Positions 8,947-52,772 of a stretch of DNA of 64,000 nucleotides are shown here, piece after piece. The translations under genes were made by a program, and so were the position numbers. The stretch covers positions 849,982 through 913,981 of the forward strand of contig KK106985.1 of the NCBI GenBank assembly GCA_000611775.1. Direction: 5' to 3'. The notes under the pieces are model-generated. The model was not told the DNA's origin. It was given only the letters and a program-made list of their open reading frames with translations, and ran no database searches. Source of the DNA: Umbilicaria muhlenbergii. Lineage: Eukaryota > Ascomycota > Lecanoromycetes > Umbilicariales > Umbilicariaceae. Numbering within the stretch: position 1 is the stretch's first letter; each line of letters begins with the position of its first letter.

Positions 8947-9059
8947 CGTACATAGCGTCTCGGAATAATAGATAGTCCGGTGCTAGGCTTAATATGGTAA
9001 TATAGAACTCTATTGTTGCCACCCCCCCCTTTTTCGACATAGAATTTCAATATTTCTAT

Positions 9060-22118: not shown

Positions 22119-23832
22119 ATGGTAGGGAGTTACAACTCTAGCGCCATCTGGGTGCTCGGCCTGGTGGTAATTGCCTACCTACTCTACCTTCGTTTTCTCA
22201 GAGTCAAACGTGATCCGAGGGAACCGCGTGTGACACCTCCAACCATACCACTGATCGGTCATATCATCGGTATACTGCGATATGGCAACGACTACTACGG
22301 CATGATCAAGTAAGTCGGTCTTGCTTGCAAAGCATCACTTTCCCCAGTTCTGACCAACCTCAGCGCTTCGCAGCAGCTACCAGTCTTTACCCTTGAGATA
22401 TTCAACACGAAGACATATGTCGTCAACTCTCTTGACATGGTCACCGCCACCCAGAGGAACACCAAGACTCTTTCCTTCAATCCATTCCTTTTCTGGGCCA
22501 GCAAGGCAATAACTCAGTTTGACAAACCAGGCCTAGCGGTTGTTGACAACAACATCGAAGGCGCCCAAGGAAAATAGTGCTACATTCCGGAGATGCTGGG
22601 AGGCGTCCACCAAACTCTAGCCCCCGGCCCTGCATTGGACAAAATGAATTACACTACACTCAACAAGCTATGCCCGGCAATTAATGGGCTTCGGAACAGA
22701 GACACTTTCGAGTTACAAGATTGGATTCGTGGGCTCTTCACTGTATGCAGCCTTGCATCTATCTATGGACCAGATTGGATCAGTAGTCCAGAGGTGACCA
22801 AGGCATTCTGGTCAGTTCGTAACCCCGATGAATTCGCTTGTGCGACGCAGGCAACTTTACAAAGAAAAAGATTGGTAACAATGACTAATATTAAACAGGG
22901 ACTTTGAGCGTGACATCACAACCCTTTGTGCAGACACATTCCCCACAATTCTAGCAGGCAAGGCTTACAAGAGCCGGCAACGCCTCTTCGATGCATTCAA
23001 CGAATATTTTGGCAAAGGGGGCCAAGAGCGTGGTTCCGAGCTCGTCAAGGTAAGATACAACAGCGGCATCAGAAACGGATTAACGCTCGAGCACATCGCC
23101 CGCGGCGAAACCGCCCTCCTCCTCGGCGTCCTCCCCAGCGTCGTCGCCTCGACCTTCTGGACCATCCTGCACGTCTTCTCTCAGCCCACCCTCCTTCAAG
23201 ATCTCCGCCGCGAGATCGAAACCGTCGTCTGCACCTCCCCTTCCCACCCCGACTCGGCCACCCACCTCATCGACATCACCAAACTCCCCGCCCACTGCCC
23301 CCTCTTCGTCTCCGTCTACCACGAAGCCATGCGCCTCAAATCCACCAACGCCTCCGTCCGCAAAGTCCTCGCCGACACCCTCGTCGGCGACTACCTCTTC
23401 GCCAAAGGCGCCGTCGTCCAAATGCCCAGCGTCGCCATCCACAACAACGCGGCCTTCTTCGGCCCCGATCCCCAAGCTTTCGATCCCCGCCGCTTCCTCA
23501 GACCCGACCCCGCCAGCCTGTCCAAGGGGCCCAAGCGGCCTGCGGCCGCCTTTCGCGTGTTTGGAGGCGGCGCCACGTTGTGTCCCGGACGGCATTTCGC
23601 CAGTACGCAGATCTTGGGCTTCGTCTCGGCGCTGCTTATGGGGTTTGACTTCATGCCTGCAAGTGGGGGGTGGGTCATGCCGAAGCCGATGGGTAGTCGG
23701 CTTATGACTGCGATTTTGGGACCGGTCGCCGATGTGAGGGTTAGGGTCGAGAGGAGAGAGGGGTGGGAGAATGTCAGGTGGGGGTTCGTGACTAGTGAGG
23801 TTACGACGGAGATTGAGATGGATACGTTGTAG
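22119..23832 (+). pseudogene. Cytochrome P450 monooxygenase with one in-frame TAG
   Basis: Start chosen at ATG 22119 (MVGSYNS), giving an N-terminal membrane anchor (AIWVLGLVVIAYLLYLRFL) then the proline-rich hinge TPPTIPLIGHIIG. Intron 1 runs from 22310 (GTAAGT) to the CAG near 22363; exon 2 contains VFTLEIFNTKTYVV and GGVHQTLAPGPALDKMN. A second intron starts near 22812 (GTCAGT) and ends AAACAG near 22899. Exon 3 holds the I-helix region (GETALLLGVLPSVV), the ExxR motif in HEAMRLKS, and the heme loop FRVFGGGATLCPGRHFAST with the axial Cys, then ends at TAG 23830. It is a microsomal, heme-thiolate monooxygenase, closest in feel to fungal CYP7/CYP8-like P450s; the substrate cannot be read from sequence. 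An in-frame TAG (22575-22577) stands where relatives have Trp and would truncate the protein, so it is probably inactive unless this is an error. Confidence 0.8.
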
Positions 23833-25149: not shown

Positions 25150-26681
25150 TCTTCTTTGATTGACGTGAAAATCATTCAGAGCCGTCTTTATCACTTTGAT
25201 GAATTATACAGCTGTCATCATAACAAGCTGTTCAAGACATAATGTTGTGCTGAACTGGTTGCTTTGGTGCTGACTCTTTTAGTGCAGCAGCATATGTCTT
25301 CTTCTTTGGTGGAAAAGCTTTCATTGAGACTCAACAGTTGCGTGTGAAATGTCCTGACTTTTCACAGCTATAGCAATTCCCTTTGACTCTGATACCTTTT
25401 GATACTTGCTTGATTCCTCTCTGAAATCAATTCCTTCAGAATGTTGCATCAATTTCCATTGACTGAGGGCCGTAATAGGGTTGATTGTTATACTGAGTGC
25501 TTTTGTGAGGCTTGTTCACCTTCAGTGATATGTAGTTCTTCTGGCTTTTCTTCATAGATCTTTCATACGCGCGGTTGTCAATAATGACTGACTTTTCAAT
25601 CATCTTGACTAAGGTACTTGGTTGCTCTGATCAGGAGATTTCATCTTTGATGAAGTTCTTCAAGCCTTTGTAGTACTGCGCAGTTAAGGCAGTGTCATCT
25701 CAATTCATATATGCGGCGTGTCTCTGAAAATTGACTGCATACATTGTGGCAGCTCCTTTCTGCATAATATTGCAGATTTCACGCTCCGCGGTCCTTTCTT
25801 GATTAATGATCTCAAACACAATTCTTATCTGCTTCTTGAACTCCTCTAGACTGATAAAGATCTCATTCATTTCATCATTATGATCCTTCTTCTCATTTTT
25901 CATATAGTCTCAGAGGGTCAGCTCAAATCAATTGAGAGCATCAGACCTCAAGTAGAAAGATGTGTATAATACTTTATCAACTTCCCTTTTGAACATGATG
26001 TGATTGAGGTGAATGTAAGTATCAAGTTGAGTGAGGAATAAACTCAACATCCTTCATTCTTTTAAAAACTTGTCTGATGATGAGATCTTGATCTTCATCC
26101 TTGATGACGTCAGACTCTCAGTGACTGATGAGTCATGACTGAAGATTGTCATCCTTGTGAGGGACTCATGAGTCACAGTTCATTTCACAACTGATATCTT
26201 GATGAGTGATGCTCAAAGTGTAACAGGTGATGTTGTAGTGACAGAGATAATATAATCATTCAATGAACTATACCAAGGTACAATCAACCACGTCACAGGT
26301 ATAATTATACCACTGATCACATGTAGACTCAGATAGAACTAGAGGTTGTAGACTTATGAGATTGCATTTAATACATGAGTTGAGCATGAGCTCTTAACTA
26401 TGAATCTACCTGTGATTATATAAAATTTTAAAAGACTCATGTGTAACTGTACTGCTTGATGTGTGTAACCTTTCTGCTCAAGGTGCTCATGCTCTGAGCA
26501 TCATGAGCAGTTGAGTGCTCAAGGTGCTTATGCTCTGAGCATCATGAGCAGTACCACATGTACGCCTACTGCATGTATCAATTAAGTGCTCAGGGTGCTC
26601 ATGCTCTGAGCATCATGAGTAGTACTGCATGTATGCCTGCTATGCATACCAACCAGGTACCATCTAGTGAGAGGTGTAACA
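25150..26681 (-). mobile_element. Ty3/Gypsy-like element, gag end with LTR (broken)
   Basis: The minus strand carries gag-like sequence: a helical capsid-like segment (about 25690-25900) and a CCHC zinc knuckle near 25340-25375. It lies next to a 463-bp LTR at 26219-26681. Gag therefore follows its 5' LTR on the minus strand. The rest of the element is not present to the left, where the block ends at about 25150. The coding part is broken many times. Related LTRs are at 52773-53168 and 63215-63676. Confidence 0.65.
26219..26681 (-). repeat. LTR, family 1 (463 bp)
   Basis: On the plus strand it begins TGTAACAGGTGATG and ends GTGTAACA. Inside, a unit of about 65 bp with core GTGCTCATGCTCTGAGCATC occurs three times (26480-26640). 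It shares its start and a dozen bases of outside flank (GATGCTCAAAG) with the LTR at 63215. Confidence 0.75.
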
Positions 26682-27659
26682 AGTCATTACTGCAGTTGAT
26701 GTGAATAAATGATTAATGATTAACCTTCAGCTCATCTTTTTACTTGTCATTGATGATATTTCTCTTCTTCTCAACAGACTGCTCCTTATCAAGACATGAG
26801 GGGAAAGCAGAGCAGCTCAACCTCATTGTAAAGATTTAACACAGACTACTCAGGATGCAGTTCACAAGTTAAAGGAGGATTATAACAAGAAAATGTCATA
26901 CCTGCCTCTTTTTCACCTTCAGAAGCTGCATAGGAAGTGTTCAAAGCTCTGAAGAAGACCTTCATGAGTGCTTCATTACTGTGCTATTTCAATGAAAATA
27001 AACTCATGAGGGTTGAAACTGATGCCTCTGAGTTCACAATTGGTGAAATTTTAACACAACACTTTGAGGTTGACGGTCAATTGCACTGATTATCAGTCAC
27101 ATATCACAGCAAGAAGCTGTTAGATACTGAGACCTGATATGATATTAATGAGCAAGAGCTCTTTGCCATCATGAAAGTCATGCATCATTGATGACATCAC
27201 TGTTGAGGTGCAAGACATCAAATTGTCATACTGACTGATCATGCAAACCTCATTTGATTCATGACTACCTCAAACCTCACATGAAGGCAGCTTAAGTGAG
27301 CTGAAAAGCTCACTGAATAACCTGATTATGAACTGCTGAAGATTGTCAGAGAAATTATACATGCTTGCTGTGATGAACTGCGGTCAAGACGCTCAGTATG
27401 ACAGAGGCTACAACAAAAGAATGTCATACCTGTCACAATGAATACTACTGGTATGATGAACACTGAAGACAGCGGTCTTATCAGAACATCAACAGTGAGG
27501 AATTTATTTACTTAAGAAGAAATTAATCATAATGAACTGCAGTCAAGACACTCAGTATGACAGGAGCTATGACAAAAGAATGTCATATCTGTCACAATGA
27601 ATACTACTGATACAATGAATGCTGAAAACGGCGGTTCAATCAGAACATCAGTGATGTGA

Positions 27660-28460: not shown

Positions 28461-29804
28461 CTTTGAGTTAGTTTTTAACACTTTGAGCGCTCTGAGCTTC
28501 TGATCTCATGTCTCAGCTAATAGCTGCTCTTAGCATCCTCTGAGCACTTTGAGCTCAACCTTAAATCTTGAGCAGAACATCAAAATTTTGTGATAAAAAA
28601 ACAATTATTAAAACAATTGTTTAAACAAGTACACACACAGTGTTATAATAACAGTAAAACTTATAATAAGTAAACTTTTGCTAAAATTCACTTTTCTGCA
28701 ATAAAAAATCATGATTTGTTGAGTCTGAAAGCACTGTATAAGTGTTGAGTTCTGAATATTTAAAGAACTTCAAGATTTTCATCACTTAAAAATTTACACA
28801 CTTTAATAACTTTTGCACCTCAACAGATATGAAGAAACTTTTAATGCATAAGTTATAAAGAACAGTATTCTCTATGAATGATAAATTAAAAGTTTCTTCA
28901 TAACTGCTGTTGTTGTTAAGTTATATTTAATTCAAGTTTTCAATAGTGAAAAATCTTTTAAAAAAAGTCACATACTTTGAATAACTATTGCGCTTTTATA
29001 CTTATGATATAACTTTCAGTTTATAAGTTGTAGAGAAGAAGCTATTAAACAGTTTTCTTATACAAACTTTCTTTTTATGTGTTGTTGTTGTTGAGTTATT
29101 CAAAAAGTCATTAAAAGTCTGATTATTAATGTTGTGATTTTCATCACTGAAAGTTTAAAATCAATGTAACTTTTTAACAACAACAGTTATAAAAAAACTT
29201 TAAATTATAAAACTGTTTAATAGCTTCTTCTCTACAACTTATAAACTAAAAGTTATATCATAAGTATAAAAGCGCAATAGTTATTCAAAGTATATGACTT
29301 TTTTTGAAAGATTTTTCGCTATTAAAAACTTGAATTAAATATAACTTAACAACAACAGCAGATATGAAGAAACTTTTAGTTTAACATTAATAGAGAATAC
29401 TATTTTTTATAATTTATGCATTGAAAGTTTCATCATATCTGTTGAGGTGCAAAAGTTATTAAAGTGTGTAAATTTTCAAGTGATGAAAATCTTGAAGTTC
29501 TTCAAATATTCAGAACTCAACACTTATACAGTGCTTTCAGACTCAACAAATCATGATTTTTGATTGCAGAAAAGTGAATTTTAGCAAAAGTTTACTTATT
29601 ATAAATTTTACTGTTATTATAACACTGCGTGTGTACTTGTTTAAACAATTGTTTTAATAACTATTTTTTTATCACAAAATTTTGATGTTCCGCTCAAGAT
29701 TTAAGGTTGAGCTCAAAGCGCTCAAAGGGTGCTAAGAGCAGCTGTTAGCTGAAACATGAGATCAGAAGCTCAGAGCGCTCAAAGTGCTAAAAACTAACTC
29801 AAAG
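28461..29804. mobile_element. Palindromic foldback element, 1344 bp
   Basis: The two halves (28461 to about 29130 and about 29135 to 29804) are near-perfect reverse complements. The left end begins CTTTGAGTTAGTTTTTAACA and the right end finishes TAAAAACTAACTCAAAG. The arms keep pairing through AAAATTTTGTGATAAAAAAA and through the inner TATAAGTTGTAGAGAAGAAG to the centre. No coding frame exists. It splits the 91-bp satellite array, so it arrived later. It is probably a foldback or MITE-like DNA transposon; I cannot identify a clear target duplication. Confidence 0.85.
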
Positions 29805-31510: not shown

Positions 31511-32234
31511 TAATGTCATAAGGACACTCTTTCCTGATTTTTCTCAAGAGGTTTTACAGATTTTATTAAGACCTTATAAGGTATTTACAGCAAGAGTCAA
31601 GAGAGATTCATTAAACATGTTGAATAATCTGAACAGTTTGAACAGAATTTAATTAATGTCATAAGAACACTCTTTCCTGATTTTCCTCAAGGGGTTTTAC
31701 AGATTTTATTAAAGTCTTATAAGGTATCTACAGCAAGAGTCAAGAGTGACAAGTTCATTAAAGAAGGTGACTCATCAATACAAGTTTTATTAAGGCCTTA
31801 TAAGCTTACAAGGCACTTATTGAAAGCTCACAAAGGTGATCATTTCACTTCAGAAGTTCTTTATAAAGAGGCAGTCATGAAAGTTCTTCACAGAGAGGCA
31901 GTCATGAAAGTTCTTCATGCAGAGACATTACAGGCCTACAAGACACTTATTAAGAAGTATGACACTGCAAAAAATGTTGAGCTGTGAGTTATGAGCTTCA
32001 TGACATCCCCTTTAAAAGTCATGAGAAGTATGATGACATGTCATAAGAGAGATGATGAAGAAGAAACACAAGAGAGAAGTGTTTTAAACTTATGATGATT
32101 AATCTTATTTTAGCATGACTTCACACCCTCACTCTACATGATTAAACATTTATCAGACTGTCATGATGATGTTTATGATGTTAAATTCAGAGTCAATTGA
32201 CATCAGAGACAGTGTTATGAGAAGGGAAATGCTG
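31511..32234 (+). repeat. Element 3' region with duplicated segments
   Basis: Two copies of a segment of about 135 bp (TAATTAATGTCATAAG...GGTTTTACAGATTTTATTAA at about 31505 and 31640) are followed by GTTCTTCA-type short repeats. The reverse-complement counterpart is 38183-39124. No functional frame. Confidence 0.6.
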
Positions 32235-32498
32235 TGTCAGAGTCATCATATATAGTATGACAGTACAACAGTATGACAGTATGTCATTATAACTTAAATA
32301 TGATGACTCAGCGCCTAGTGCCTTGACATCAAGTGAAAACTCTTTACAAGGAGATTTAGAAACCTGCTTCCTCAGTGATCAGTTTTGTCACTGAATAAAA
32401 TATGTATAATCACTGCATTGACTTCATCATGATTATATTGCTTATGACACTTCATTTAAACATCATTATGATGACCATCATACTACCTGCCTTTTACA
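32235..32498 (+). repeat. LTR, family 2 (264 bp), 3' LTR of the left Gypsy element
   Basis: Reads TGTCAGAGTCATCATATATA ... CTGCCTTTTACA and is the reverse complement of the LTRs at 37909-38182 and 42756-43029. It marks the left edge of the histone-bearing core. Confidence 0.8.
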
Positions 32499-32639
32499 CA
32501 ATTAAGTAAACATTAACATATCTCAGAGCTGGCAAACACAGGTCTGTACATCAATTATGTTATACATGAGCTTCATCTTAACATTTCATCATCACACATC
32601 TTCTTTCATGTTAAAAATGAGTGATCAATGTCCTTTAAA

Positions 32640-33135
32640 TTCTGCCCCTCATCATGTTTCATAATTTGTGCATCAGCTTCATATCCTTCACCTGTAATGT
32701 AACACGCTGTGCATAAATTGCAACATGATTTGTCACTATTGCTGAGTCAGTCTAGGGTTGACTTGAGGATTGTAATACACATTGTTAAACTCTGTCATTA
32801 AGAATGCTTCTGCTGCCTCTTGAAGAGCATTTAATGCACTTGACTGTATGTGATAATGATCAAGTCTCTCAACATCAGACATGATTTTCCTGATCAGTCA
32901 CTTAAAGCTTGTCTGTAAAAGAATCAACTTTGTAGTTTTCTGATAACACTGAATTTCTTAAAGTGTGACCGCTGAGCTAGGTTAAGTTGTGTGTCAGAGA
33001 GGGAAATAATTTTCAGTACACACTGCTTGATTTAAAGTGATAAGTTCTTTTAATCTTTTTAACCTTGAATTGTGCAGATCTGATCATAGATGATGCATTA
33101 TCTTGTGAAGCAAGCTGATCTCTGATAGAGGACAT
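32640..33135 (-). pseudogene. Histone H3-like gene fossil, copy 1 (CenH3-like loop 1)
   Basis: ATG at 33135 (MSSIRDQLASQDNASSM), then a basic tail (FKVKKIKRTYHFKSSS), an intron-like break (about 33013 GTGTGT to 32970 CTAG) and the histone fold. The alpha-N/alpha-1 region is SAVTL-stop-EIQCYQKTTKLI, loop 1 MSDVERLDHYHIQSSAL, alpha-2 NALQEAAEAFLM. After a second intron-like stretch, IYAQRVTLQVKDMKLMHKL matches the H3 alpha-3 block ([19 protein letters not shown]). Between the Ile of LVREI and QS there are 12 residues against 10 in canonical H3, and QEAAEAFL is the CENP-A/CenH3 form of helix 2. A few in-frame stops show that this copy is dead. The histone assignment is secure; the CenH3 class is inferred. 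Confidence 0.8.
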
Positions 33136-33626
33136 GTGCAGTACAATTTACATCATTGATGTAAAAATTTAACAGAAGTGAAAGAGGTTGAAGAAGTTAA
33201 AACTTAATGTAGAAAATTTAAAACCTGTCTAAGCTCACATAATACAAGAATTTAATGAGCTTAACAAGCTTATTATAACTGAACATTGCAGCAGCCTGCA
33301 ACACTATGAGATGATATTAAGACTACAGTAAAGATCATTATAAAGATTATCATAAAAAAGTCATGCAGAAAACTTAACAATTGAAAATTAAGATTCTGCA
33401 TTCATGTACTGAACTACATAAGGAACTTTTTGATGCAATCATGTTTATACTGTTTAAATCCTTGATTTGAAATTCTACATCTACATCATGATCATCATGA
33501 GTCATTATCTCATTGCATACTGCATACATCATGATCACACATCACCTGAGCACTATCTTTTCAGAGGCATAAATGCTGCGCACACACAAAATTAGCTGAT
33601 TAATATTATCAATTAGATTAACTTTG

Positions 33627-34223
33627 TCACTTACAGACATCAGTCATAATTTTCTGAATTCTCTTTATCAGTTTCATGTCCTTCACCTGAATAGTGACAC
33701 GCTTTGCGTGAATCACATAAAGATTACACATTAAGATGATCAACATGATCATCATCTTATACTTAAGATTTCAAGTACTCACTTTCAAACTTCATTATGA
33801 TGAAGGCCTTAACTGCCTCTTGTAATGCTTTGAGTACTGAATGCTGAATATGAAGTTCTGAGTGAATGCTATGTGTGATTTCATGAATCAAGTGATGAAA
33901 GAGTACTTTGTGAATGAGGAGTTCAGTGATCTTCTGATAACAGTGAATCTCATGAAGGGTGACAGCTGTGCTGAAGTTAATACAATGAATATTCTGAATG
34001 TAATGATGAGATACATACTTTCTTTCTTATAATGATATTGTCATCTCTGTGAGTCAGCAGCTTTGATCTTTCTACATGTCATGACTTTTAGCTTCTTCAG
34101 TGCTGCAGGAGATTTGATGAAGATCTTTTTAAAAACTTTTATTGCTATTAATTGTCATTGTGTGAGATTGACATGCGCAGTGAATCCTGAAGCTGAATCA
34201 GAGTCACAGGCAGCAGAAGACAT
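33627..34223 (-). pseudogene. Histone H3-like gene fossil, copy 2 (canonical loop length, long tail)
   Basis: ATG at 34223 (MSSAACDSDSASGF) begins a tail of about 50 residues, basic in its second half (SPAALKKLKVMTCRKIKAAD). After an intron-like break ending CTTCAG (near 33974), the fold reads TAVTLHEIHCYQKITELLIHK, a loop of canonical length before HIQHSVLKALQEAVKAF, then an intron starting GTGAGT (about 33795) and [20 protein letters not shown]. The match to H3 ([37 protein letters not shown]) covers the whole fold. It differs from copies 1 and 3 in tail and loop, so it is a separate H3 paralogue, not a duplicate of them. Fewer stops interrupt it. The plus-strand coding-like segment starting near 34250 diverges from it with a short shared 5' space. 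Confidence 0.8.
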
Positions 34224-34239
34224 CTAGTAAACAAATTAA

Positions 34240-35170
34240 TAAAATTATTAACATTCTGCTGATTGTTCTTACAGCTGTGTTGAGAGAGACGTTGAATGCA
34301 CTTTCAAGAAAGATATTGCATGACAAGCAAAGCTCAACCACTAAGAAATGAACATTCAAGGAGGAAATTGAGAGAAATCATTATTCATGTTGTGAGTTTA
34401 ATGATTATTATAAAAATTGTCATAACACGTCAAGCTGTTAGTGAGACGGCGCTAGTGAAACCTTAAACTCAAGTGATTATTCTGCCTCACTCTCTTTATC
34501 AACTCTATCAACTTCATCATCTTCATTTCATCAAAACACAACAATTTTAGTTGATTTTCTTCATGTTTCATCTTTAATTTCTTCTGTATCACAAGTATCA
34601 TTCTCAGCATCATTAAAATCAATCAAAAAGCTTCACCTGATATGATTTCTTCAGCAAGCTTTTACACATTCTTAAGTTAACACTGAAAAAAGCTTTAAAT
34701 CACTCATCATGACCTTCATCAGTGATGATGAGTCAATGATTCATGAAGAAATCATTAATAATATCTTTTGCAAATGTAAAGTCATCATTAAGAAAGTAAA
34801 TACTGCTTCTCCCTCACCTGTATATTCATCAAGATTATTATAATGATTATCATAACTGATTGATGTTATAGTCTTCTTCAGTCTTCTTGAGTGAGGCTGA
34901 GTCATCAGTTAAACATCATCACTGAGGCTGCTCAGTGAAATACACAGCATTTAAAAAGCCTCAAGCAGCTCTCTTCATCAATTCTTACATTGTTAAAAAT
35001 CATGAAAGAATGCAGGGTCTCAACACTTATGAGAAAAAATATGAGAAGGTCAAAAAGGTTGATGTTAATAATCTCACATATCATCTTCAGTAACTGTGAA
35101 AATCAAAAGACTATGTGTCTGCATCAGGTGAAGTGCAGAAGCAGTTGAAGAATGCATTTACATAAAAAAT
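34240..35170 (+). other. Coding-like segment of unknown type, divergent from H3-like copy 2
   Basis: The plus strand after 34260 shows protein-like stretches without long open frames: charged AVLRETLNALSRKIL, a Ser/Thr-rich region (34490-34620), an acidic MTFISDDESMIHEE (34701-34740) and a helical KPQAALFINSYIVKNHERMQ stretch (about 34958-35020). Intron-like segments containing a TTATCATAA motif occur at about 34400 and 34850. I do not recognise the family. It may be a partner gene sharing the H3-like copy 2 promoter. Confidence 0.35.
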
Positions 35171-35244
35171 AAAAAACAAACAGTTCACACTTTTTTTTAT
35201 AATAATCTTTATGATAATCTAAATACTAATCACTGTATTTAAAA

Positions 35245-35451
35245 TTACTCAAGGAGTTCACGTGAGTGTTGTAAAGCAGACATATGACCTTGACTCAGAT
35301 GATAATCAAGATGATAAAAACTTAAACTGAGAAGATATAAAGTCAAATTATGATGACCCTGTCTTTGTTGTAATGCTGTAAAGTAATAATCACAACATGA
35401 AGGTTCCTGATCTGAATGTTGATATGCATATGAGTGAATTTTCTCTGACAT
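35245..35451 (-). other. Small unassigned ORF, 68 codons
   Basis: An open minus-strand frame rich in His, Gln, Tyr and Leu between the two histone-like regions. No domain is recognised. Its openness in this stop-rich DNA is mildly unusual, but chance is a fair explanation. Confidence 0.2.
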
Positions 35452-36079
35452 GTCAGGCTGAGCAACAGATGATATGTTTGAGATGAAAAATTATTCATTA
35501 AATGTGATGCTGTCCTCTCTGTTCTCTACATCATAAGATGAAGATGATAAATGTTATGTTTAATCTTGAAGGTACTCTCTTTATTATGCATTATTTTAAT
35601 TAAGCAAACACTAACATATCTCAGAGCTGACAAATGCAGGTTCATACATCAATTATGTTACATGTGAGCTTTATCTTGACATTTCACCATCACACATCTT
35701 CTTTTCACGTCAGGAATGAGCAGTCTGATTTAATTTAAACTCATGAACTTTGAAGAAGGATAAGAACTTTGTTGAGTTATCTGAATCTGCATCATGATGA
35801 CTGAAGGACTATGATTATGTTATGCATGAATAAAAATCAGACTTCAACCTGAAATCAGTCAAGGAAGTCTTTGATGTCATCATGACTCTTGAAATTCATT
35901 CACTTGCACAGTTAGCTCATCTTTTATCATCTCAAGTATGCTTGATTATGTTAATGAATGCAGCTGATTCTGAGAGTGCAGTGTATCTAAATACCTTGAA
36001 TTGAACTTATGAGATTATCAAGACATAATTTATTGAAAGCAAAAACATGAATATAAAGATTTCAATCATAATCAATGTT

Positions 36080-36594
36080 CTTTAAATTCTGCCCTTCATC
36101 ATGTCTCATAATTTGTGCATCAGCTGCATATCCTTCACCTGTAATGTAACACATCATGCATGAATTGTGACATGATTTGCCACTATTGCTGAGTCAGTCT
36201 AGGGTTGACTTGAGGATTGTAATACACATTGTTAAACTTTATCATTAAGAATGCTTCTGCTGCCTCTTGAAGCACACTCAATGCACTTGACTGTATGTGA
36301 TAATGATCAAGTCTCTCAACATCAGACATGATTTTCCTGACTAGATGCTTAAAGCTTGCCTGTCTCAATATCAAGTCTGTACTTTTTTGAAGACGTCAGA
36401 TGTCTTGAAGTGCAACTGTTGAGTTAAATTAAGTAATGCATCAGGGAGGGAAATAGTTTTCAGTACACACTGCTTGATTTAAAGTGATAAGACCTTTTAA
36501 CTTTCTTTACTCACTTGATGTTTAATTTTGATACTGTCTTTCATGCTGTTGTTTCATCATTCTGTGAAACAGAGGTCTCATAGTCAGTGAGCAT
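36080..36594 (-). pseudogene. Histone H3-like gene fossil, copy 3 (duplicate of copy 1)
   Basis: A possible ATG at 36594 (MLTDYETSVSQNDETTA) precedes a basic tail ending VKKVKRSYHFKSSS, as in copy 1. The fold region is STVALQDI, RLQKSTDLILRQ, SFKHLVRKIMSDVERLDHYH, then IQSSALSVLQEAAEAFLM and, after an intron-like stretch, CVTLQVKDMQLMHKL. Loop 1 has the same two extra residues as copy 1, and the QEAAEAFL helix-2 signature is kept. A 63-codon open stretch from 36374 covers alpha-1 to alpha-2. This copy belongs to the direct duplication with 32500-33135 but differs at many transitions, so the two have mutated independently. Confidence 0.8.
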
Positions 36595-37079
36595 GTTAAG
36601 TATAATTTTAATCATCTTTTCTAAACTCTACGTCCTCAAGATCAAAGGCATCTTTCAGAATCAAGAAAGCAAGTGAAAGCAGACAGAAAAAGTGATCACT
36701 ACACAGTGTTAAAGTTCATTTAATTTAAATTAAATTATATGCAGGAGCTTGTTTAAAGAATGAAATGAACTTCTTACTCACTTAATTACTTTAAAGACTA
36801 TCATAACAACTGTGTCTCAAACAGATGACGCTTTGACTTTTGAAAAATTAATTTAAGATGAAATTCAAAATGAACTCCTCCCTTGCACATATCACATTAC
36901 TTTAAAGATTATCATAACTTTCTTGCATATTTGAGCACAGCCTTCTTTTAAGTTTCAACATTAAATATTTTCTACTTATTCAAGATTCACCTGTTTGTAT
37001 TCTCTTATAAAGCTGAGCATTATTTTTTAAAATTTGAACAACACTGTAATTCACATCATCTGTCTCTTTTTTTGCTAAA
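36595..37079. other. AT-rich spacer between H3-like copy 3 and the BED-finger gene
   Basis: Divergent intergenic space between minus-strand copy 3 and the plus-strand gene at 37080. It contains two nearby TTTAAAGA-TATCATAAC motifs (36790 and 36900) like those in the intron-like segments of this core. No gene is recognised. Confidence 0.4.
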
Positions 37080-37908
37080 ATGACTCAGGCATCATCATCA
37101 CAGTTGATGAGTTCATTTTCCTCTGATATAAATTTTGAAAGCCTCACATCTATCAATGTAAATCTTGTGTGAGTTGAAAAGCGCCGGGATTGTTACCTTT
37201 GAACATCAGATAAGCATGAGGTGTTTGTGAAATGATAACAATAAACACAGTGATATCTGATTAACAGTCAACTTGAGTGAGGTGCTCAGAAGAAGATTAT
37301 ATGAGGTTCAAGAAAGCAGATCAGAGCATGAGAGTTTTATTAAAAAAATACACATCAACTCAGTGAATTTTCAAAGATCATATGTCTTCACTGTGATGCA
37401 GTACTTGATTATTCTTCAATGAGCAGTGAGACAGAGATGATGAATGATCACTTCAGAACATCAAGATGTAAGTCAACAGTTAAATTTCATGAGTTGAAAC
37501 AGCTTAACATCAGAGAAGGATTTCTTTATGAAGTGAGTCATTAATTATCATAAAGATTATCATAAAGGCTGACACTGATATTCTTGCAGCAGCAATAAAG
37601 AAGACTAGATCTTATTTAAAGGACAAATCAAAACCTTGAAAAGAAGAATTTCTCAGAGCAACTTTTTTACATCATGATCTCATTAAGCCTCTTCATGTGC
37701 TCTGTCAACAACATTAAGTTTCAGTGAGCTTTTTACTGCTTAAACAGGACAATCACCCTTGAGTTTGCATCAACAATAAAGTGAAGACTCATAACACAGT
37801 TAAATCAAGTTCAGACATTACTGTTGCAGGATTTGCTTAATGATGTCATGAAAGTTGCACTTGCTCTTGATTACTGATCATCCTTCAACCGGCAATCCTA
37901 CATGATCA
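37080..37908 (+). pseudogene. BED-type zinc-finger gene, 5' part of a split hAT-like transposase
   Basis: ATG at 37080 (MTQASSSQLMSSFSSDINFE). Downstream, a zinc-binding block reads IICLHCDAVLDYSSM ... NDHFRTSRCKSTVKFHEL (37375-37500): C-x2-C then H-x5-C, the BED-finger pattern of hAT transposases and their relatives. A GTGAGT...TTGCAG intron (about 37542-37592) precedes AAIKKTRSYLKDKSKP and FLRATFLHHDLIKPLHVL. Several TGA stops are present. At 37909 the sequence is cut by an LTR element flanked by GATCA on both sides. The DNA resuming at 43030 carries hAT catalytic-core sequence on the same strand, so the two parts probably belong to one gene. The BED call is from spacing; the link across the insertion is strong. 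Confidence 0.6.
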
Positions 37909-38182
37909 TGTAAGAGGCAGGTAGTACGACAGTCATCATAATGATGTTTAAACAGAGTGTCATAAGCAATATAATCATAATGAAGTTAATGCAGTGATTA
38001 TATGTATTTTATTCAGTGACAAAACTAATCACTGAGGAAGCAGGTTTCTGCATCTTCTTGTGAAGAGTTTTCACTTGATGTCAAGGCACTAAGCGCTGAG
38101 TCATCATATTTAAGTTATAGTGTCATATCATAATGTTGTACTATAGTGTTGTACTGTCATACTATATATGATGACTCTGACA
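37909..38182 (-). repeat. LTR, family 2 (274 bp), 3' LTR
   Basis: Direct repeat of 42756-43029; the 5-bp GATCA target site precedes it. Confidence 0.9.
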
Positions 38183-38394
38183 CAACATTTCCCTTCTCAT
38201 GATGTCATTCCTGATGCCAATTGACTCTGAATTCATAATCATAGACATCATCATGATAGTGTGATAAGTGATTAATCATGTAGGGTGAATGTGTGAAACA
38301 GCATTAAGATAAAACTGATCACTGTAAGTTTAAAACACCTCTCTCTTGTGTTTCTTCTTCATCATCTCTTTTATAACATGTCATCATACTTCCT

Positions 38395-38885
38395 GATAAG
38401 TGCCTTGTAGGCTTGTAATACCTCTGCATGAAGAACTTTCATGACTGCCTCTCTGTGAAGGACTTCTGTGGATGCCTTTTTATGAAGAACTTTTATGAAT
38501 GCTTTTTTATAAAGAACTTTCATGACTGTCTCTTTATGAAGAACTTCTGAAGTGAAATAATCATCTTTATGAGCTTCTGATAAGTGTCTTATAAGCTTGT
38601 AATGCCTCTGTGTGAAGGATTTTCATGAATATCTCTCTGTGAAGAACTTCTGTGACTGTCTCTCTATGAAGAACTTCTGAAGTAAAATAATCACCTTTGT
38701 GAGCTTCTGATAAGTGCCTTGTAGGCCTGTAATGCCTCTGCATGAAGAACTTTCATGAATGCCTCTCTGTGAAGAACTTTCATGACTGCCTCTTTATGAA
38801 GAACTTCTGAAGTGAAATGATCATCTTTGTGAGCTTCTGATAAGTGCCTTGTAAGCTCATAATGCTTTAATGAACTTGTCACTCT
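38395..38885 (-). repeat. Tandem repeat with GAAGAACTT(T/C) units
   Basis: A unit of about 150-180 bp, itself built from 30-bp subunits (core GAAGAACTTTCATGACTGCC), repeats about three times. On the minus strand a 63-codon open frame repeats VLHKEAVMKV-type heptads. The left Gypsy element has the same motif in opposite orientation at 31850-31960. Confidence 0.65.
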
Positions 38886-39124
38886 TGACCCTTGCTGTAG
38901 ATCATCAATAAGGTCTTGATAAAATCTGTAAAACCTCTTGAGAAAATCAGGAAAGAGTGTTCTTATGACATTAATTAAATCCTGTTCAAACTGTTTAGAT
39001 TGTTCAGCATGTTTAATGAATTTCTCTTAACTCTTGCTGTAGATACCTTATAAGGCCTTGATAAAATCTGTAAAACCCCTTGAGGAAAATCAGGAAAGAG
39101 TGTTCTTATGATATTAATTAAGTC

Positions 39125-39390
39125 ATGTTTGAATTATTCAGATTGTTTAAAATATTTAAATTATTCAGCCTGTTTGATGTCCTGCATGCATGTGTTTATG
39201 ATGACAGGAAGGGTGATTCAAACTGTTTAAATTGTTCAAATCATTCAGATTGTTCAGCATGTTCAGAATTATTCAGACGTTTAAACTGTTTGAACTGTTC
39301 AGGTTGTTCAACATGTTCAGAATCATTCAGACTGTTTAAATCATTCAAATTGTTCAATATGTTCAGAACTGTTTAAACTGTTTAAACATA
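39125..39390 (-). repeat. Low-complexity tandem repeat (TTCAGATTGTTCAGCATG type)
   Basis: Reverse-complement counterpart of 31215-31510. The 83-codon plus-strand ORF here is only an open reading of the repeat. Confidence 0.7.
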
Positions 39391-39499
39391 AGTCTGTCTT
39401 TTCTACTCCTCTTTCATTTTTCTTTAGTACAACAAAATGTCATAATAATTGTCATACTTTTGTCATACTCATGTATATTCATTGTATTGATATATTCAT

Positions 39500-40146
39500 C
39501 ATAATTTAAATCCTGAATTGCTGATGTTCCTGTCATACTGCTGACTTTAATATTCATTGCATTGATATATATTCATCACGGCTTGCTTTTTAAGCATGTA
39601 AGTCATGAACTGCTGATGTTTCAATCATGCTGTCAGCTTCAATATTTATTATATTAATATATTCATCATGACTTGATCTGTCACAGCTTGCTTCATGAGC
39701 ATGTAGATCATGAACTGCTGATGTTTCAGTTGTATCATCAGCTTCAGTATTTATTGTATTAATATATTCATCACAGCTTGCTTCTTCTTGAGCATGTAAG
39801 CATTAACTGCTGATGTTTCAATCATATCATCAGCTTCAGTATTCATCATACTGATATATTCATCACTGATATGTTCATCATATTAATATGTTCATCACAG
39901 CTTGCTTCTTGAGCATATAAGTCACAAACTGCTGATGTTTCAGTCATATCATCAGCTTCAGTATTCATCATATTGATATATTCATCACGGCTTGCTTCTT
40001 CTTGAGCATGTAGGCACTGACTGCTGATGTTTCAGTCACATCATCAGCTTCAGTATGCATCATATTGATATGTATTCATCATGACTTGCTTCTTGAGCAT
40101 GTAAGCACTGACTGCTGATGTTTCAGTCACATCATTACGCTGCATC
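39500..40146 (-). repeat. 91-bp-type satellite array, sister copy
   Basis: Units with TCATCACGGCTTGCTTCTT and AACTGCTGATGTTTCAGTC read as the reverse complement of the array at 27660-31130. The array is interrupted by the TGGGTT-rich unit at 40147 and resumes after the gap at 41471. Confidence 0.75.
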
Positions 40147-41001
40147 ATGGGTTGGGTTTTACCCAGTGGGTTTGGGTTTGGGTTGGGTTTGGGTTGAGTT
40201 TTGAGGTGGGTTATACATGTCAAAACTCAACCCAGAAAAAACCCAACTCATTTAACTCAAACTCAGAAAATTCTGAGTTAACCCAGTACATACAAATAGT
40301 TATGGTAGTCTTTATGGTAGTCAAGAAAGTCAGTTCAAAAGGCGCCTTCTTAAGTCATTTTCAAGGCCATTTTTTGAGGCCGTCGTTGAAGTCATTTTGA
40401 AAGTCATTTTGAAAGTCACTTTGAAAGCTGTTTTTCAAGGCCGTCATCAAAGCCATTTTAGAAGCTGTTTTTCAAGGCCGTCGTCAAAGTCATTTTGAAA
40501 GCTGTTTTGAAAGTCACTTTGAAAGCTGTTTTTCAAGGCCGTCATCAAAGCCATTTTAGAAGCTGTTTTTCAAGGCCGTCGTCAAAGTCATTTTGAAAGC
40601 TGTTTTGAAAGTCACTTTGAAAGCTGTTTTTCAAGGCCGTCATCAAAGCCATTTTAGAAGCTGTTTTTCAAGGCCGTCGTCAAAGTCATTTTGAAAGCTG
40701 TTTTGAAAGTCACTTTGAAAGCTGTTTTTCAAGGCCGTCATCAAAGCCATTTTAGAAGCTGTTTTTCAAGGCCGTCGTCAAAGTCATTTTGAAAGCTGTT
40801 TTGAAAGTCACTTTGAAAGCTGTTTTTCAAGGCTGTCATTGAAGCCGTTTTGAAAGCTGTTTTGAAAGTCGCTTTGAAAGCTGTTGTGGTAGTCTTTATG
40901 GTAGTCAAGAAAGTCAGTTCAAAAGGCGCCTTCTTAAGTCATTTTCAAGGCCATTTTTTGAGGCCGTCGTTGAAGCCATTTTGAAAGCTGTTTTGGAAGT
41001 C
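40147..41001. repeat. TGGGTT-rich end plus CpG-retaining 98-bp minisatellite
   Basis: The unit begins with GGGTTGGGTTTTACCCAGTG and GGGTTTGGGTT runs (40147-40215) and a GAGTT/AACTC inverted pairing (40195-40240). A 98-bp tandem repeat follows, with GGCCGTCATCAAAGCC starting at 40439, 40537, 40635 and 40733 and divergent copies either side. Unlike all surrounding DNA it keeps CpG (GGCCGTCGTC). TGGGTT-rich ends are typical of some fungal hAT elements, so it may be a hAT-derived MITE that amplified internally. The right end is lost in the gap. Confidence 0.65.
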
Positions 41002-41470
41002 NNNNNNNNNNNNNNNNNNNNNNNNNNNNNNNNNNNNNNNNNNNNNNNNNNNNNNNNNNNNNNNNNNNNNNNNNNNNNNNNNNNNNNNNNNNNNNNNNNN
41101 NNNNNNNNNNNNNNNNNNNNNNNNNNNNNNNNNNNNNNNNNNNNNNNNNNNNNNNNNNNNNNNNNNNNNNNNNNNNNNNNNNNNNNNNNNNNNNNNNNNN
41201 NNNNNNNNNNNNNNNNNNNNNNNNNNNNNNNNNNNNNNNNNNNNNNNNNNNNNNNNNNNNNNNNNNNNNNNNNNNNNNNNNNNNNNNNNNNNNNNNNNNN
41301 NNNNNNNNNNNNNNNNNNNNNNNNNNNNNNNNNNNNNNNNNNNNNNNNNNNNNNNNNNNNNNNNNNNNNNNNNNNNNNNNNNNNNNNNNNNNNNNNNNNN
41401 NNNNNNNNNNNNNNNNNNNNNNNNNNNNNNNNNNNNNNNNNNNNNNNNNNNNNNNNNNNNNNNNNNNNNN
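41002..41470. other. Assembly gap (469 N)
   Basis: A run of N interrupts the 98-bp minisatellite. Size may be nominal. Frames shown across it are artefacts. Confidence 0.99.
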
Positions 41471-42755
41471 TATTCATCACAGCTTGCTTCTTAAGCATGT
41501 AAGTCATGAACTGCTGATGTTTCAGCTGCATCATCAGCTTCAGTATTCATTGTACTGATGGTATTTGTTGTGACAAGTATGACATTCTTTTGTCATAACT
41601 CCTGTCATACTGATTGTCTTGACTGCAGTGTCATTACAGCAAGCATGTATAATTTCTCCTGCACTGACTTATAATCCTTGATTCTTAAATGAAAGGACTG
41701 TCACACTCTTTCAGCAATAATTGAGGTACTGACAGTCTTTGACAGTTCATAGTTTTTCAGTGAGCTTTTCAGCTCACTTGAGCTGCCTTCATGTGAAGTT
41801 TGAGGTCATCATAAATCAAACAAGGTTTACATGATCAGTCAATATGATGATCAGGTGTTTAGCGCCTTGACAGTAATGATGTTAATGATGCATGATTTTC
41901 ATGATGACAAGAAGCTCTTGCTCATCTGTATTATATCAGATCTCATTATTTAGCAGCTTTTAATGCTGCTTCAAAAAATGAGAAGGAAGTGAGTACAACT
42001 GCAAGTGATATTAATTGCAGATTATGCTTGCCTTCATGATGTCATCTCTTTTAAATAAAGATTGCTTCTCAGCTGTTTGAAATACATCTGTGAAGTCATG
42101 ATACTCAGGAGGTAAACTGTCATAAACATTGTCATACCCTTTGTCATATCATAATGAGTTCATTTGTAGGGTATATTCTTTCATATCAATCATTAAGTTT
42201 ATCAGCCTCTAAAGTCTTCTTTTCACTGATGATGAATACTCAGTGCATGATAATATGTTTTAACTTTCTTCATAGGAATTTACCTGTATCATAGTGATGA
42301 TTTGAGTTTGCATGAACTAAAAATGATAGCCTGAGAACAAAAGGAGCTGATGTGTTGTCTTGTATGATAAAAAAGCAATTGCTATAGCAGTAAAGTTGAT
42401 CATCAGTGTTGTACATCATAATCATCAGTATGACAAACTCTGATAACTCAATTCCTTGTCATACATGTTGTAGTTGTAGTCACTGACGCTCAATGACTTC
42501 CTGATTGTGAGCAGTGGCTGCCTCAAGGTCATTAATGATGTCATCAGAGTTACTTGCAGTGATGTGTTCATGCTCATCATCTTTGATGTCTGAAATAAAG
42601 GTATTAATGACTGATAATGTAAACTTGTTAAAGGAAGACTCTGATTCAGCATGATTATCAGCTGTTTCACTGACTTAATGAGATTAAAGTGTTGATGTCA
42701 TCATGTTTTATGCTTCTGACATGACTGTTTACCTGAAGGTACTGAGTGATCAGTA

Positions 42756-43029
42756 TGTAAGAGGCAGGTAGTATGACAGTTGTTGTAATGATGTTTAAAT
42801 GAAGTGTCATAAACAATATAGTCATGATGAAGTCAATGCAGTGATTATATGTATTTTATTTAATGATAAAACTGATCACTGAGAAAGCAGGTTTCTGCAT
42901 CTTCTTGTGAAGAGTTTTCACTTGATGTCAAGGTGCTAAGCGCTGAGTCATCATATTTAAGCTATAGTGTCATATCATAGTGTCATATTATAATGTTGTA
43001 TTATCATACTATATATGATGACCCTGACA
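42756..43029 (-). repeat. LTR, family 2 (274 bp), 5' LTR
   Basis: Direct repeat of 37909-38182; followed by GATCA, the same five bases that precede the left LTR. Confidence 0.9.
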
Positions 43030-43400
43030 GATCATTATGATATACTTCATTGATTAAGCTTGAACCTATCATCAAAGACTTCTGACATTTAAGTCAGTTC
43101 ATGAAAGACACACTGAAAGGAACCTGATCATTATTCTTGATGAAGTCATTGCAAGACATCATCTGCAAGGCTGAATTCTGACAATTACAACTGATAACAC
43201 ATTTAATAATCAGACAATGCATGAGGAGCTTGTGAAACTCTTAAGAGAGAAGAACATAAATATAAAATTAATTCACTCTGAACATGAGAATGTCAGGACT
43301 ATGCAGATTATGAATTAATGCATGTGTTTTAACAGACTGACATTTAGCTACAGAAGAGAATTTTAATTTAAGAAGCAAGAAGAAGAAAAAGCATGAAGAA
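43030..43400 (+). pseudogene. hAT transposase core fragment
   Basis: The plus strand reads ILTITTDNTFNNQTMHEELV followed by KLLREKN (about 43180-43260). This matches the hAT catalytic-domain segment around the second Asp (TDNASNN). The sequence just before it (ILDEVIARHHLQG) fits the preceding beta strand. Stops interrupt the frame. It continues the DNA cut at 37908, where a BED-finger gene on the same strand ends, so the LTR element landed inside this transposase gene. The expected PCLAHVIQL block is not recognisable further right. Confidence 0.65.
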
Positions 43401-45787
43401 TAAAACTTTTATATGTATGTTAAACTCATTAATTTAATCACTGCTAACCTGTTCAGTCATATCATTTGATATCATTTGAATCATTCAGTTCAGTTCAACA
43501 TTCAGGCATAAACTTGACATCACTCTCTTCTCTGTTTAATGAGTTTTATAAGCTGATCATCTACCTTTCTGCTTCATTATTGATGTATTCAGTGACTCAG
43601 TCAGCTTATTCAAGTACCTTTCATGAAATGCTTTTTTCAGTTCAGGTGAGTGTTTGAACCTGTCAGTGTTGTATCAGGTCTTGTCAGGTGAATATTTTTT
43701 TCATGTCACTTTGTATTATAATTTATTTCTTCATCAACAGCTGTCATCAATTTGTTCAACTTCTCATTTCAGTTCAGCCTGTTCAGTTATTACAGGTGGC
43801 AGAGGTGGCTTAATTTATTCAAGTAAAGAATCATTCACAGTGAGCTGTAGTAAGAAGATGTGAAAGACAGAGTGTATCTTCATTGACTCAGGCAGTTCAA
43901 GCTCATATGCTTGAGCTGAAACTTTCTTCTTGATTCAAAAAGGTTCTTCATTCTTGTGATTCAGCTTCTTGAACAAATGAGTCATTTGAATGTTCTTCAT
44001 TAACAATCATATCAGGTCTCTCACTTTATATGCTGAGGTCAATATTCAGGTTTTGTTCATGAAATCTTCTTGCTGAAGTTGTGCTGCTGTCATGTTGTCT
44101 TGTAACATCACATGTAGAGCTTTCATATGATTCATTATGAAATCAGTCTTTTCCTTCAGGATTCATTCTCTTGTCAGCAGTGAAGTGATCAATCATTCAG
44201 GGTTGAAGCTCATTCAGGGGTGATATTCCTTATTCACAAAGAATGATGAGACTTTGATGAAGTCAGAATCTGCATTGTTGGCTGTAAACTCAGTCATTGA
44301 TAATCATTTAGTTCAGTCATCTTGCTGATAGTTCACAAATGCTCTAAGATATCATTTAATATTCACATTCACATTTTCAGACTGCTTGTCTGTCTCAGGG
44401 TGAAAAGTGGTTGAAGGTTTCAATTTGATTCAGAGTTGTTCACATAAGTATTTTCAGAGTAATGCTACAAATTGTGGTCCTCAGTCTGATGTTATGATTT
44501 GTGATAGCTCATGAAATCTTCATACATTTTGAAGCAAGAGTTCAGTAATGTATTCAGTTGATGTTTCCTCATCCTTATCTGTTGAACAAGAAATATAATG
44601 TCTTTCTTTAATCAGTCTGCAAATGACTGTCAGGATTGCGTTGAACCCTTTGCTTTCAAGTAACTCAGTAATCAAGTTGAGTGAAATATCTTGCCATGAA
44701 TGACTTAAAATTGAAAGTGATTTCAGAGCTCCTTGATACTGCTCATTCATGTTCTTCATTCAGCGGCAGATGTGGCAATTCTGAACAAAATGACTGACTG
44801 TTCAGTTCATTCAGGGCCAGTAGTAGAAGCATGCAAGCAGTTTCAGAGTCTTTTGATGTTCAATATGTTTTATCATCAGCTGTTCATGAGCTTCCTGAAT
44901 TAATCATTATCATAATTTATTCTTATCTGAATCATTGTTGACTTCTGAGACTCATACACATTCTTGATAAAGCAGTCAGCCTTTGTCCTCAGTGCAGTCA
45001 CTGAGAGAGATCTTGATTAAATGTCTTGCCTTGATCTGTAATAAGTTTAGAATTTCCTGGCAGAAGTCATCTGCTATCACATAACAGGTAATCAACTCAT
45101 TTAAAGTCTCATTCAAGACCTGTTCAGTTGATTCATTCAGAACATCATTTGAATTATTATTCAGATCATTCAGGGCCTGTTCAGTTGATTTGTTCAGAAC
45201 ATCATTTAAATCATCATTCAGATCATTCAGAGCCTGTTCAGTTGATTTTAAAAGCTGAGGAGCTTTTTCTTTTTGTTCAGTGATGATGCATGAGTTTAAG
45301 CAGCGGCTCAGTAGCATGATTTAAGATTGATATCATAATCACTCATCATCCTCATTCTTCTTTAGTTGATTATCTGAGTGTTTAATGAGTGTGTTCACCT
45401 TTTCATTTTCCTTGCCTGTTCAGTAGGTGATCACAAAGTTGAATTGTGAGAGAAATTCAGCTCATCTGATTTGTCTGTGAGTCAGTTTCTTGATCATTAT
45501 AAAGTACTTCAGAGCTTTATGATCTGTTAGAATTTAAATCAGATTCTTCATTCCTGTTAATTCAGCACATCATTCCTCTAGACTTCAAATGATGATCAAC
45601 AATTCTTTGTCATAAATTTCATAGTTGCATTCAGCTGGTATGAGTTTCTTAGAGAAAAATGTCACTGAATGCATTAATCTTTAATCATCTCTCTGAGACA
45701 GTACTCCTGTGAATACCAGATCAGATGAGTCACATTTAAGATAACATGTTCAGGTTCAGTCAAAGTGTTGTAATATTAACATGTTAA
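43401..45787 (-). mobile_element. Ty3/Gypsy element, pol 3' half (broken, truncated)
   Basis: Minus-strand pol fragments in order from right to left: RNase H (about 45420-45750), a linker with a 63-bp tandem repeat (45110-45250), integrase zinc-binding and core parts (44300-44960), and an integrase C-terminal segment (about 43790-43970). The element is cut on its right side by the LTR at 45788. No LTR of its own is identified on the left. Broken many times. Confidence 0.7.
45110..45250 (-). repeat. 63-bp tandem repeat within Gypsy pol
   Basis: Units around TTCAGATCATTCAGAGCC and TGTTCAGTTGATT recur at about 63-bp spacing. On the minus strand they read as repeated STEQALNDLN-type blocks, a coding-length (21-residue) period. 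Confidence 0.65.
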
Positions 45788-52200: not shown

Positions 52201-52474
52201 GTATTCATCATGATGAACTCCTCAGAGAATGTAGGAGTGACGTGTCATGACTGAGAGTTAAGAATGATAAAATCATCATTAATTGTTGCTTGCAAAGTTT
52301 CTGAAGTGATTTGTGAAACTGTTGCAGAGGCTGATTAAGGAGTTCATGAGTTTTCAGTCATTCTTGCTGAACAGCGTCCTTACAATGAATTGAAGCAATA
52401 AAACTGTAAGTGTACTATCATGAGGTAATATCTTAACTAAGGAATTATGAAGCTATGTGACAATAATGACTTAA
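45788..52474 (-). mobile_element. Ty3/Gypsy element A, near full length (broken)
   Basis: The 3' LTR (45788-46242) is followed by a polypurine tract on the minus strand (C-run at 46245-46254). Then, right to left in coding order: gag (51500-52350), CCHC zinc knuckle (about 51400-51450), protease region, reverse transcriptase (49980-50850, with the FLNDILIYS active-site region), RNase H (49300-49900) and integrase with the DDE-core region (48300-48900). The 5' LTR survives only as 52405-52474. Sister copy B (53169-56852) is nearly parallel from 49070 on. Broken throughout, tens of stops; old, but dating is invalid because of the mutation process. Confidence 0.8.
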
Positions 52475-52772
52475 GACTGTGATACAATATACTCTGTCAG
52501 CCTTACTGTACCCACCTGAGTACAGGGTGAGAATTAAGGTTAGGACTTTTCAGTCTGAATGCAAGTAACACACTTTTCAGAATCATCACTCACACAACAG
52601 TCTTTCACATCATCAACACATCATTTACATGATTGCATGATGAAAAGAGTGAGGTTGAGCCTATGAAGAAGATTATGACATCATTAAGAGAAGTTCAGTT
52701 TCTTTTGCACTCAAGAAGTAAGCATGAAGATGTTTAAGTTTTTAAGAATAAAAATCTTAAGGAGAAAGTTAA
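52475..52772. other. Unassigned 298-bp AT-rich segment
   Basis: Lies between the truncated LTR of element A and the family-1 LTR. No coding or repeat identity is recognised. Confidence 0.4.

Follow-up and report, generated by a model that had tools for sequence, protein, structure and literature searches.

How three degenerate histone H3-like genes came to lie side by side in transposon-rich DNA is the question raised by a locus of Umbilicaria muhlenbergii. H3 is a strongly conserved histone, for which filamentous fungi carry few genes (PMC3538342, PMC5307856). The locus was studied within a stretch of 64,000 nucleotides, here called the window (assembly GCA_000611775.1, contig KK106985.1, positions 849,982-913,981 of the forward strand), and the coordinates below are positions in that window. 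The three minus-strand loci, termed c1, c3 and c2 in order of position, are degenerate pseudogenes of the histone H3 family located in transposon-rich, hypermutated DNA. We put at about even the chance that they are relics of an H3-carrying, hAT-type transposon unit that was multiplied as genomic DNA and then hypermutated.

Three degenerate genes of the H3 family

A sequence-only reading of this DNA had proposed three degenerate H3-like loci on the minus strand. Pfam, the PDB and a local profile, itself an H3 hidden Markov model (HMM), all agree with that proposal, and the coordinates given at the time were correct to within about 30 bases. The gene models, built by hand, are as follows.

32659-33135, minus strand: c1, H3-like pseudogene (from stop-free pieces, H3/CenH3 profile and intron modelling)
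33135-33024, 32971-32783 and 32735-32659, minus strand: exons 1, 2 and 3 of c1
33023-32972 and 32782-32736, minus strand: introns 1 and 2 of c1
33627-34223, minus strand: c3, H3-like pseudogene (from Pfam, PDB, H3/CenH3 profile and intron modelling)
34223-34019 (two stops), 33965-33783 (open) and 33730-33627 (open), minus strand: exons 1, 2 and 3 of c3
34018-33966 (GTATGT..CACAG) and 33782-33731 (GTGAGT.., acceptor AA), minus strand: introns 1 and 2 of c3
36106-36594, minus strand: c2, H3-like pseudogene (from Pfam, PDB, H3/CenH3 profile and intron modelling)
36594-36471 (two stops), 36418-36230 (one stop) and 36182-36106 (two stops), minus strand: exons 1, 2 and 3 of c2
36470-36419 (acceptor AA) and 36229-36183, minus strand: introns 1 and 2 of c2

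The loci were tested in three ways, using stop-free pieces, reading frames with X at the stops, and a local profile of H3 and the centromeric histone CenH3. Among the stop-free pieces, all on the minus strand, 33766-34026 (E = 1.1e-8) and 36186-36395 (E = 1.9e-8) match the histone family PF00125, and three others match below the cutoff (32739-32897, 5.8e-5; 33630-33770, 1.3e-5 and just under it; 32662-32751, 0.021). With X at the stops, PF00125 is matched at 8.7e-22 with three stretches in one frame and at 3.1e-8 in another. The best PDB matches by phmmer are H3.2 for c3 (1.6e-11) and the H3.1/CENP-A chimera 5zbx for c2 (2.5e-9). The local HMM was built from six H3/CenH3 sequences and run on six frames of the whole window, where it found nothing with E < 0.1 beyond the three loci. 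Their middle exons score 49.0 (c2), 44.5 (c3) and 42.2 (c1) bits and their last exons 16.6 (c3), 7.0 (c1) and 5.5 (c2) bits, while the top score in 500 dinucleotide shuffles of 32400-37900, each read in six frames, is 4.0 bits. Since the last exons of c1 and c2 barely exceed the shuffles, their assignment rests mainly on position. By its profile match to the PF00125 fold, the cluster belongs to the histone H3 family.

None of the copies has the open frame and canonical tail (ARTKQTARKS) of a functional H3 gene, as all three contain stops and have tails unlike that of H3. The three in-frame stops of c1 lie in exons 2 and 3, and the motif ALQEAAEAFL is present; the stops of c3 are confined to exon 1, and the exons of its fold are open. 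The N-terminal tails comprise 37 (c1), 41 (c2) and 68 (c3) codons and are basic just before the fold. An AlphaFold2 model of c3 with c1 and c2 rows (pLDDT 74.4, pTM 0.41, two long helices) was uninformative. A scan of prokaryote genomes was set aside because the 7 of 58 candidate stretches that encode H3 (76-92% identity) are on contigs of metagenome-assembled genomes and are probably eukaryote contamination.

Modelled introns shared by the copies

The apparent introns of the sequence-only reading were recovered as two per locus, each of 47-53 bp. These were modelled by hand and, where two splice sites were possible, the one preserving the common phase was chosen; in the resulting models, positions and phases are equal in c1, c2 and c3. 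Intron 1 is in phase 1 within the Thr codon of H3's GTVAL, and intron 2 is in phase 1 within the Asp codon of FEDTN, such that the modelled middle exon spans alpha-N to alpha-2 and a last exon follows intron 2. Several splice sites are mutated. The second donor is AT in c1 and c2, c3 retains the donors GTATGT and GTGAGT, and the acceptor is AA at intron 1 of c2 and intron 2 of c3. Processed pseudogenes are disfavoured because intron positions and phases are common to all three copies. The proposal is that genomic copying of a divergent, intron-containing H3-type gene gave rise to three or more linked copies.

Divergence and hypermutation

The sequences of c1 and c2 are 80.9% identical over 549 aligned positions, with 30 transitions and 11 transversions separating them across 87 codons (261 bases). 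Over 85 codons, c3 differs from c1 by 52 transitions and 55 transversions and from c2 by 59 and 60, respectively. At codon positions 1, 2 and 3 these differences number 37, 23 and 47 (c1-c3) and 39, 26 and 54 (c2-c3), and the fewest changes at position 2 and the most at position 3 suggest divergence while the copies were translated; the c1-c2 differences taken alone (18, 9 and 14) have no such pattern of selection. Judged by these codon-position counts, which were made without a formal test and to which uneven hypermutation could contribute, the copies probably worked before hypermutation and would have diverged while still coding. The similarity of c1 and c2 is patchy: they match without a difference along 45 bases of intron 2 and along 30 bases of exon 2, and are just 60-67% alike over the first 60 bases of exon 2, which suggests gene conversion between them.

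Around 25-27 kb the GC content of the window drops, from about 0.5 to less than 0.4. From 25.5 kb onward, the observed/expected ratio (o/e) is 0.04-0.19 for CpG and 0.42-0.53 for CpC, and TpA is not elevated. C-to-T hypermutation resembling repeat-induced point mutation (RIP), with depletion of CpG and CpC, is therefore real in this DNA. Classic RIP is rejected, as its CpA-to-TpA bias is not seen over the same range (TpA/ApT 0.59-0.68; (CA+TG)/(AC+GT) 1.6-1.7). The RIP-like process put forward earlier stands as a C-to-T process without the CpA signature.

Duplicated pairs in the window differ by 375 transitions and 27 transversions (3.4-kb Ty3 pair), 28 and 0 (the long terminal repeats, LTRs, of one retroelement) and 68 and 35 (c1/c2 unit). 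Per site, C/T differences in the Ty3 pair are 0.33 at CpG (4 events), 0.25 at CpC, 0.16 at CpT and 0.15 at CpA, and in the LTR pair 0.14-0.18 with no context preferred. By count, CpA and CpT hold the largest share of the C/T differences still present between copies, and we infer that CpG sites were consumed first. A CpG signature is reported in some fungal genomes, with CpG and CpA in Tuber melanosporum (PMC4352252). Across the three copies, 21 of the 33 cells at the 11 Arg columns of Aspergillus nidulans H3 are CAN or TGN, 7 are Arg and 5 are other, as expected from C-to-T decay of CGN. The proposed course is that a RIP-like process, possibly triggered by repetition, changed Arg codons to His, Cys, Gln and stops and damaged the splice sites after the copies had diverged. 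A separate CpG-depleted island is present at 3500-9000 (CpG o/e 0.21; flanks 0.94 and 0.81).

Flanking retroelements and the order of events

The cluster lies between copies of an LTR retroelement, and a short flank, E, is common to two of its genes.

32501-32642, minus strand: E, the 3' flank of c1, common to c2 (80.6% to 35599-35742), stopping at the left LTR
35599-35742, minus strand: E downstream of c2, continuing beyond the point where the LTR starts in c1's copy
32235-32500: LTR copy of the left element, 266 bp, adjoining E, in orientation opposite to the right element's LTRs
37909-43029, minus strand: right LTR retroelement, with paired LTRs and a target site duplication (TSD)

The right element has LTRs of 274 bp each (37909-38182 and 42756-43029, the pair with 28 transitions and 0 transversions), the 5-bp TSD GATCA at 37904-37908 and 43030-43034, and an RNase H remnant at about 41.76-41.96 kb; its paired LTRs and TSD are those of an LTR retrotransposon. 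A second LTR of the left element was not found in the window. The large inverted repeat around the cluster was considered as the ends of an H3 element and rejected, since a single LTR element, present twice, accounts for both arms. The histone genes belong to neither copy and lie in the 5.4 kb between them. The right element is younger than the histone duplication, as its LTRs differ by no transversions in 274 bases and c1 and c2 by 11 in 261 (Fisher p 0.0003). Furthermore, E of c1 ends at the left LTR and that of c2 runs on, indicating that the LTR copies came after the histone duplication. Copies of one LTR retroelement family came to flank both sides, and the locus is now dead DNA.

The right element contains a less mutated insertion at 40149-41001 (CpG o/e 0.54 in this kilobase), with a GGGTT-rich start and then a 98-bp tandem array, followed by an N gap of 469 bp (41002-41470). 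Coding-like stretches with a 27-bp repeat (9 residues, VLHKEA-type) and no above-cutoff Pfam match lie within the LTR elements at 31628-31984 (plus strand) and 38374-39026 (minus strand).

A possible transposon carrier for the H3-like genes

Two further features bear on whether the genes were carried by a transposon.

37080-37908, plus strand: possible BED-finger gene fragment, ending at the right LTR element (zf-BED match)
33333-33357, plus strand: motif M, 25 bp, two 12-bp units, 198 bp upstream of the candidate ATG of c1
34403 and 36784: relatives of motif M, upstream of c3 (by 180 bp) and of c2 (by 190 bp)
34833, 35195 (minus strand) and 37543 (in the BED fragment): further copies of motif M; 36895, a weaker one

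A transposon carrier is plausible but unproven. It is favoured by the BED finger, by motif M, which the BED fragment has in common with all three H3-like genes, and by published precedent; the copies would most likely have been cargo of a BED-finger (hAT-type) DNA transposon, like the published H3L/hAT elements. The neighbouring BED/hAT-like gene of the sequence-only reading is reduced to a weak BED finger at 37344-37541 (plus strand; E = 0.019, 15.4 bits, below the cutoff of 20.6), in a fragment with a possible intron, judged by eye, that contains a motif M copy. With the c1 motif as query, 0.0065 (c3) and 0.018 (c2) of 3227 control stretches of 400 bp match, fractions that are a guide only as the motif was found by looking, the controls omit the cluster and the 39.9-41.5 kb array (which holds the motif), and the match limits were looser than the actual hits.

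Several results weigh against a carrier. Six-frame scans for DUF659 and the hAT dimerisation domain found neither, whether across 27.0-56.5 kb (at E values up to 0.1) or across 34.2-37.9 and 43.0-47.5 kb (at E values up to 10), a search of limited sensitivity as such a gene would be degenerate and truncated. With left ends sought in 25400-27110 and 32501-33700 and right ends in 36700-37908 and 43030-43860, no terminal inverted repeat (TIR) of 14 bp with an 8-bp TSD was found; the ends may be lost to the LTR elements. That search gave 0 matches (0-1 in 20 shuffles), and the single match inside 32501-37908 (32945-33930; shuffles 0-2) has both ends within genes. There is no second copy of the proposed unit anywhere in the window. 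Motif M is not unique: with transitions allowed, it also matches Ty3 DNA (51279, 55380) and the 40.3-40.9 kb array. Among published cases, the copies of Pseudocercospora fijiensis are intronless and the Pyrenophora tritici-repentis case has also been called transcript capture (both PMC6710886), whereas c1-c3 retain introns; in Puccinia graminis, H3-like genes expanded without a transposon link (Manning et al., PMC3538342). The mobile H3 unit suggested earlier is a sensible idea with precedent, and the cluster may be such a unit. The insertion at 40149-41001 contains two less-decayed copies of motif M, at 40298 and 40882.

The sequence-only reading knew of no described fungal element carrying H3 variants, but such elements are published: hAT elements with H3-like genes in P. 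tritici-repentis (Manning et al. 2013, PMC3538342) and hAT-amplified H3-like sequences in Pseudocercospora, Cercospora and Sphaerulina, i.e. Mycosphaerellaceae (Dhillon et al. 2019, PMC6710886). The phenomenon of hAT-carried, mutated H3-like genes is therefore already known, and c1-c3 most resemble that kind. Like the cluster described here, the P. tritici-repentis H3L is neither H3 nor CenH3 and has an altered N-tail; its link to a hAT-type gene may be matched here by the BED fragment, and the long form of about 5.6 kb compares with the 5.4 kb between LTR elements here (PMC3538342). In contrast, P. tritici-repentis has 26 copies that are very similar and mostly intact, complete with TIRs and a hAT dimerisation domain; the three Umbilicaria copies are dead and divergent, accompanied by no more than a weak BED finger, and no TIR was found.

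In P. fijiensis, 784 H3-like copies occur in AT-rich blocks only, one or two per element, and RIP inactivated all but the original; five further genomes have such copies, and the hAT domain was recovered in only 4 of the 6 (PMC6710886). The Mycosphaerellaceae copies are, like c1-c3, degenerate and killed by C-to-T mutation. They differ in that P. fijiensis has intronless copies in a 9.5-9.9-kb element with a 20-bp TIR and an 8-bp TSD, compared to three copies with introns and a common upstream motif in Umbilicaria, and in that CpA-to-TpA RIP is found in all six genomes, compared to CpG/CpC depletion without a CpA signature here. A literature search, with most subscription journals outside its coverage, found no report of three clustered, hypermutated H3-like genes that keep their introns; the available part of PMC10878826 concerns an H4 variant and has nothing on H3.

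Possible tandem duplication of a host gene

It is nearly as likely that a host gene for an H3 variant was simply duplicated in tandem on the spot, with no carrier and with the BED fragment as an unrelated neighbour, its copies being trapped in a hypermutated block rich in repeats. The sequence-only reading had named simple processed or segmental duplication as what would undo its mobile unit; the introns disfavour the processed form, and the tandem form is a serious contender. The three genes share orientation within 4 kb, the repeat unit is scarcely more than the gene and E, introns and the upstream motif are retained, and the patchy c1/c2 identity suits gene conversion in an array. Precedents are the P. 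graminis expansion noted above and the two-intron H3 paralogue of A. terreus (PMC5307856), a source that also reports partial H3 duplications in A. oryzae, A. sojae and A. parasiticus. The Aspergillus cases are likewise extra H3-type genes in an ascomycete, but the available text does not describe them as hypermutated, clustered or transposon-linked. Against tandem duplication, amplified and degenerate H3-like copies are published for one group only, P. fijiensis with five relatives, and are assigned there to hAT elements (PMC6710886); the BED fragment also holds motif M.

H3-like or centromeric

Derivation of the copies from the host gene for CenH3 is considered very unlikely. Loop 1 of CenH3 exceeds that of H3 by two or more residues, as is also seen in the sequences compared. 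In c1 and c2, loop 1 is two residues longer than in H3 and AAEAF is present, both CENP-A-like features, but c3 has the H3 loop length and is without AAEAF. Other points toward CenH3 are the tails, which are not H3-type, the top PDB match of c2 (the H3/CENP-A chimera), Phe at H3's Tyr in all three copies, and KDM where Cnp1/Cse4 show RDM/KDM. These are outweighed in the overall scores, which are 181.5, 180.5 and 214 for c1, c2 and c3 against A. nidulans H3 and at most 172.5 against Cnp1, Cse4 and CENP-A; identity to A. nidulans H3 is 39 (c1), 40 (c2) and 44 (c3) of 85 columns. Additionally, TLQ/TIQ matches the fungal H3 compared, and the LPFAR motif of aspergillus CenH3 (PMC5307856) is not present in c1-c3, whose residues read FKX, FKH and FHH. 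Since all three score higher for H3, they are named H3-like variants, and the comparison favours genes that are neither plain H3 nor clear CenH3.

Histones also occur in some giant viruses, but an origin from an integrated large DNA virus has next to no chance given two spliceosomal-type introns modelled per copy, Pfam matches that are to histone and retroelement domains and include no core gene of a DNA virus (all frames except plus-strand 57-64 kb and minus-strand 25-27 kb), and three viral-contig scans that found no relative.

Other features of the window

28461-29804: near-perfect palindrome with arms of 638 bp, 94% complementary, and 68 bp between them
48991-52475 and 53097-56523: two direct copies of a degenerate 3.4-kb Ty3 sequence, 87% identical
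41.5-56.5 kb, minus strand: reverse transcriptase, RNase H and integrase domains
9330-9869, plus strand: DDE_Tnp_4 transposase piece (E = 2.8e-11) in less mutated DNA
18665-20077, minus strand: stop-to-stop open reading frame of 471 codons (386 from ATG), DUF7924 (E = 1.4e-94)
22885-23829, plus strand: P450 domain

Rfam (gathering scores) and ARAGORN gave 0 matches, and two DUF6996 matches (0.0057 and 0.024) are both below the cutoff.

Implications for H3 capture by transposons

It is unlikely that the transposon bore its own working H3 gene with introns and promoter, from which two types, one with the H3 loop and one with the longer, CENP-A-like loop, arose within the element until the mutation system of the host destroyed it; such an element may once have set its own chromatin. 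If the cluster is a further case of H3 carriage, the phenomenon would extend to a lineage whose hypermutation depletes CpG and CpC, and H3 would have been captured as genomic DNA with introns and upstream sequence, expressible at once, rather than as a retrocopy. The divergence in loop type would then be a sign that the cargo had been in use. Repeated capture of H3 by transposons poses the question of why H3 gets picked up.

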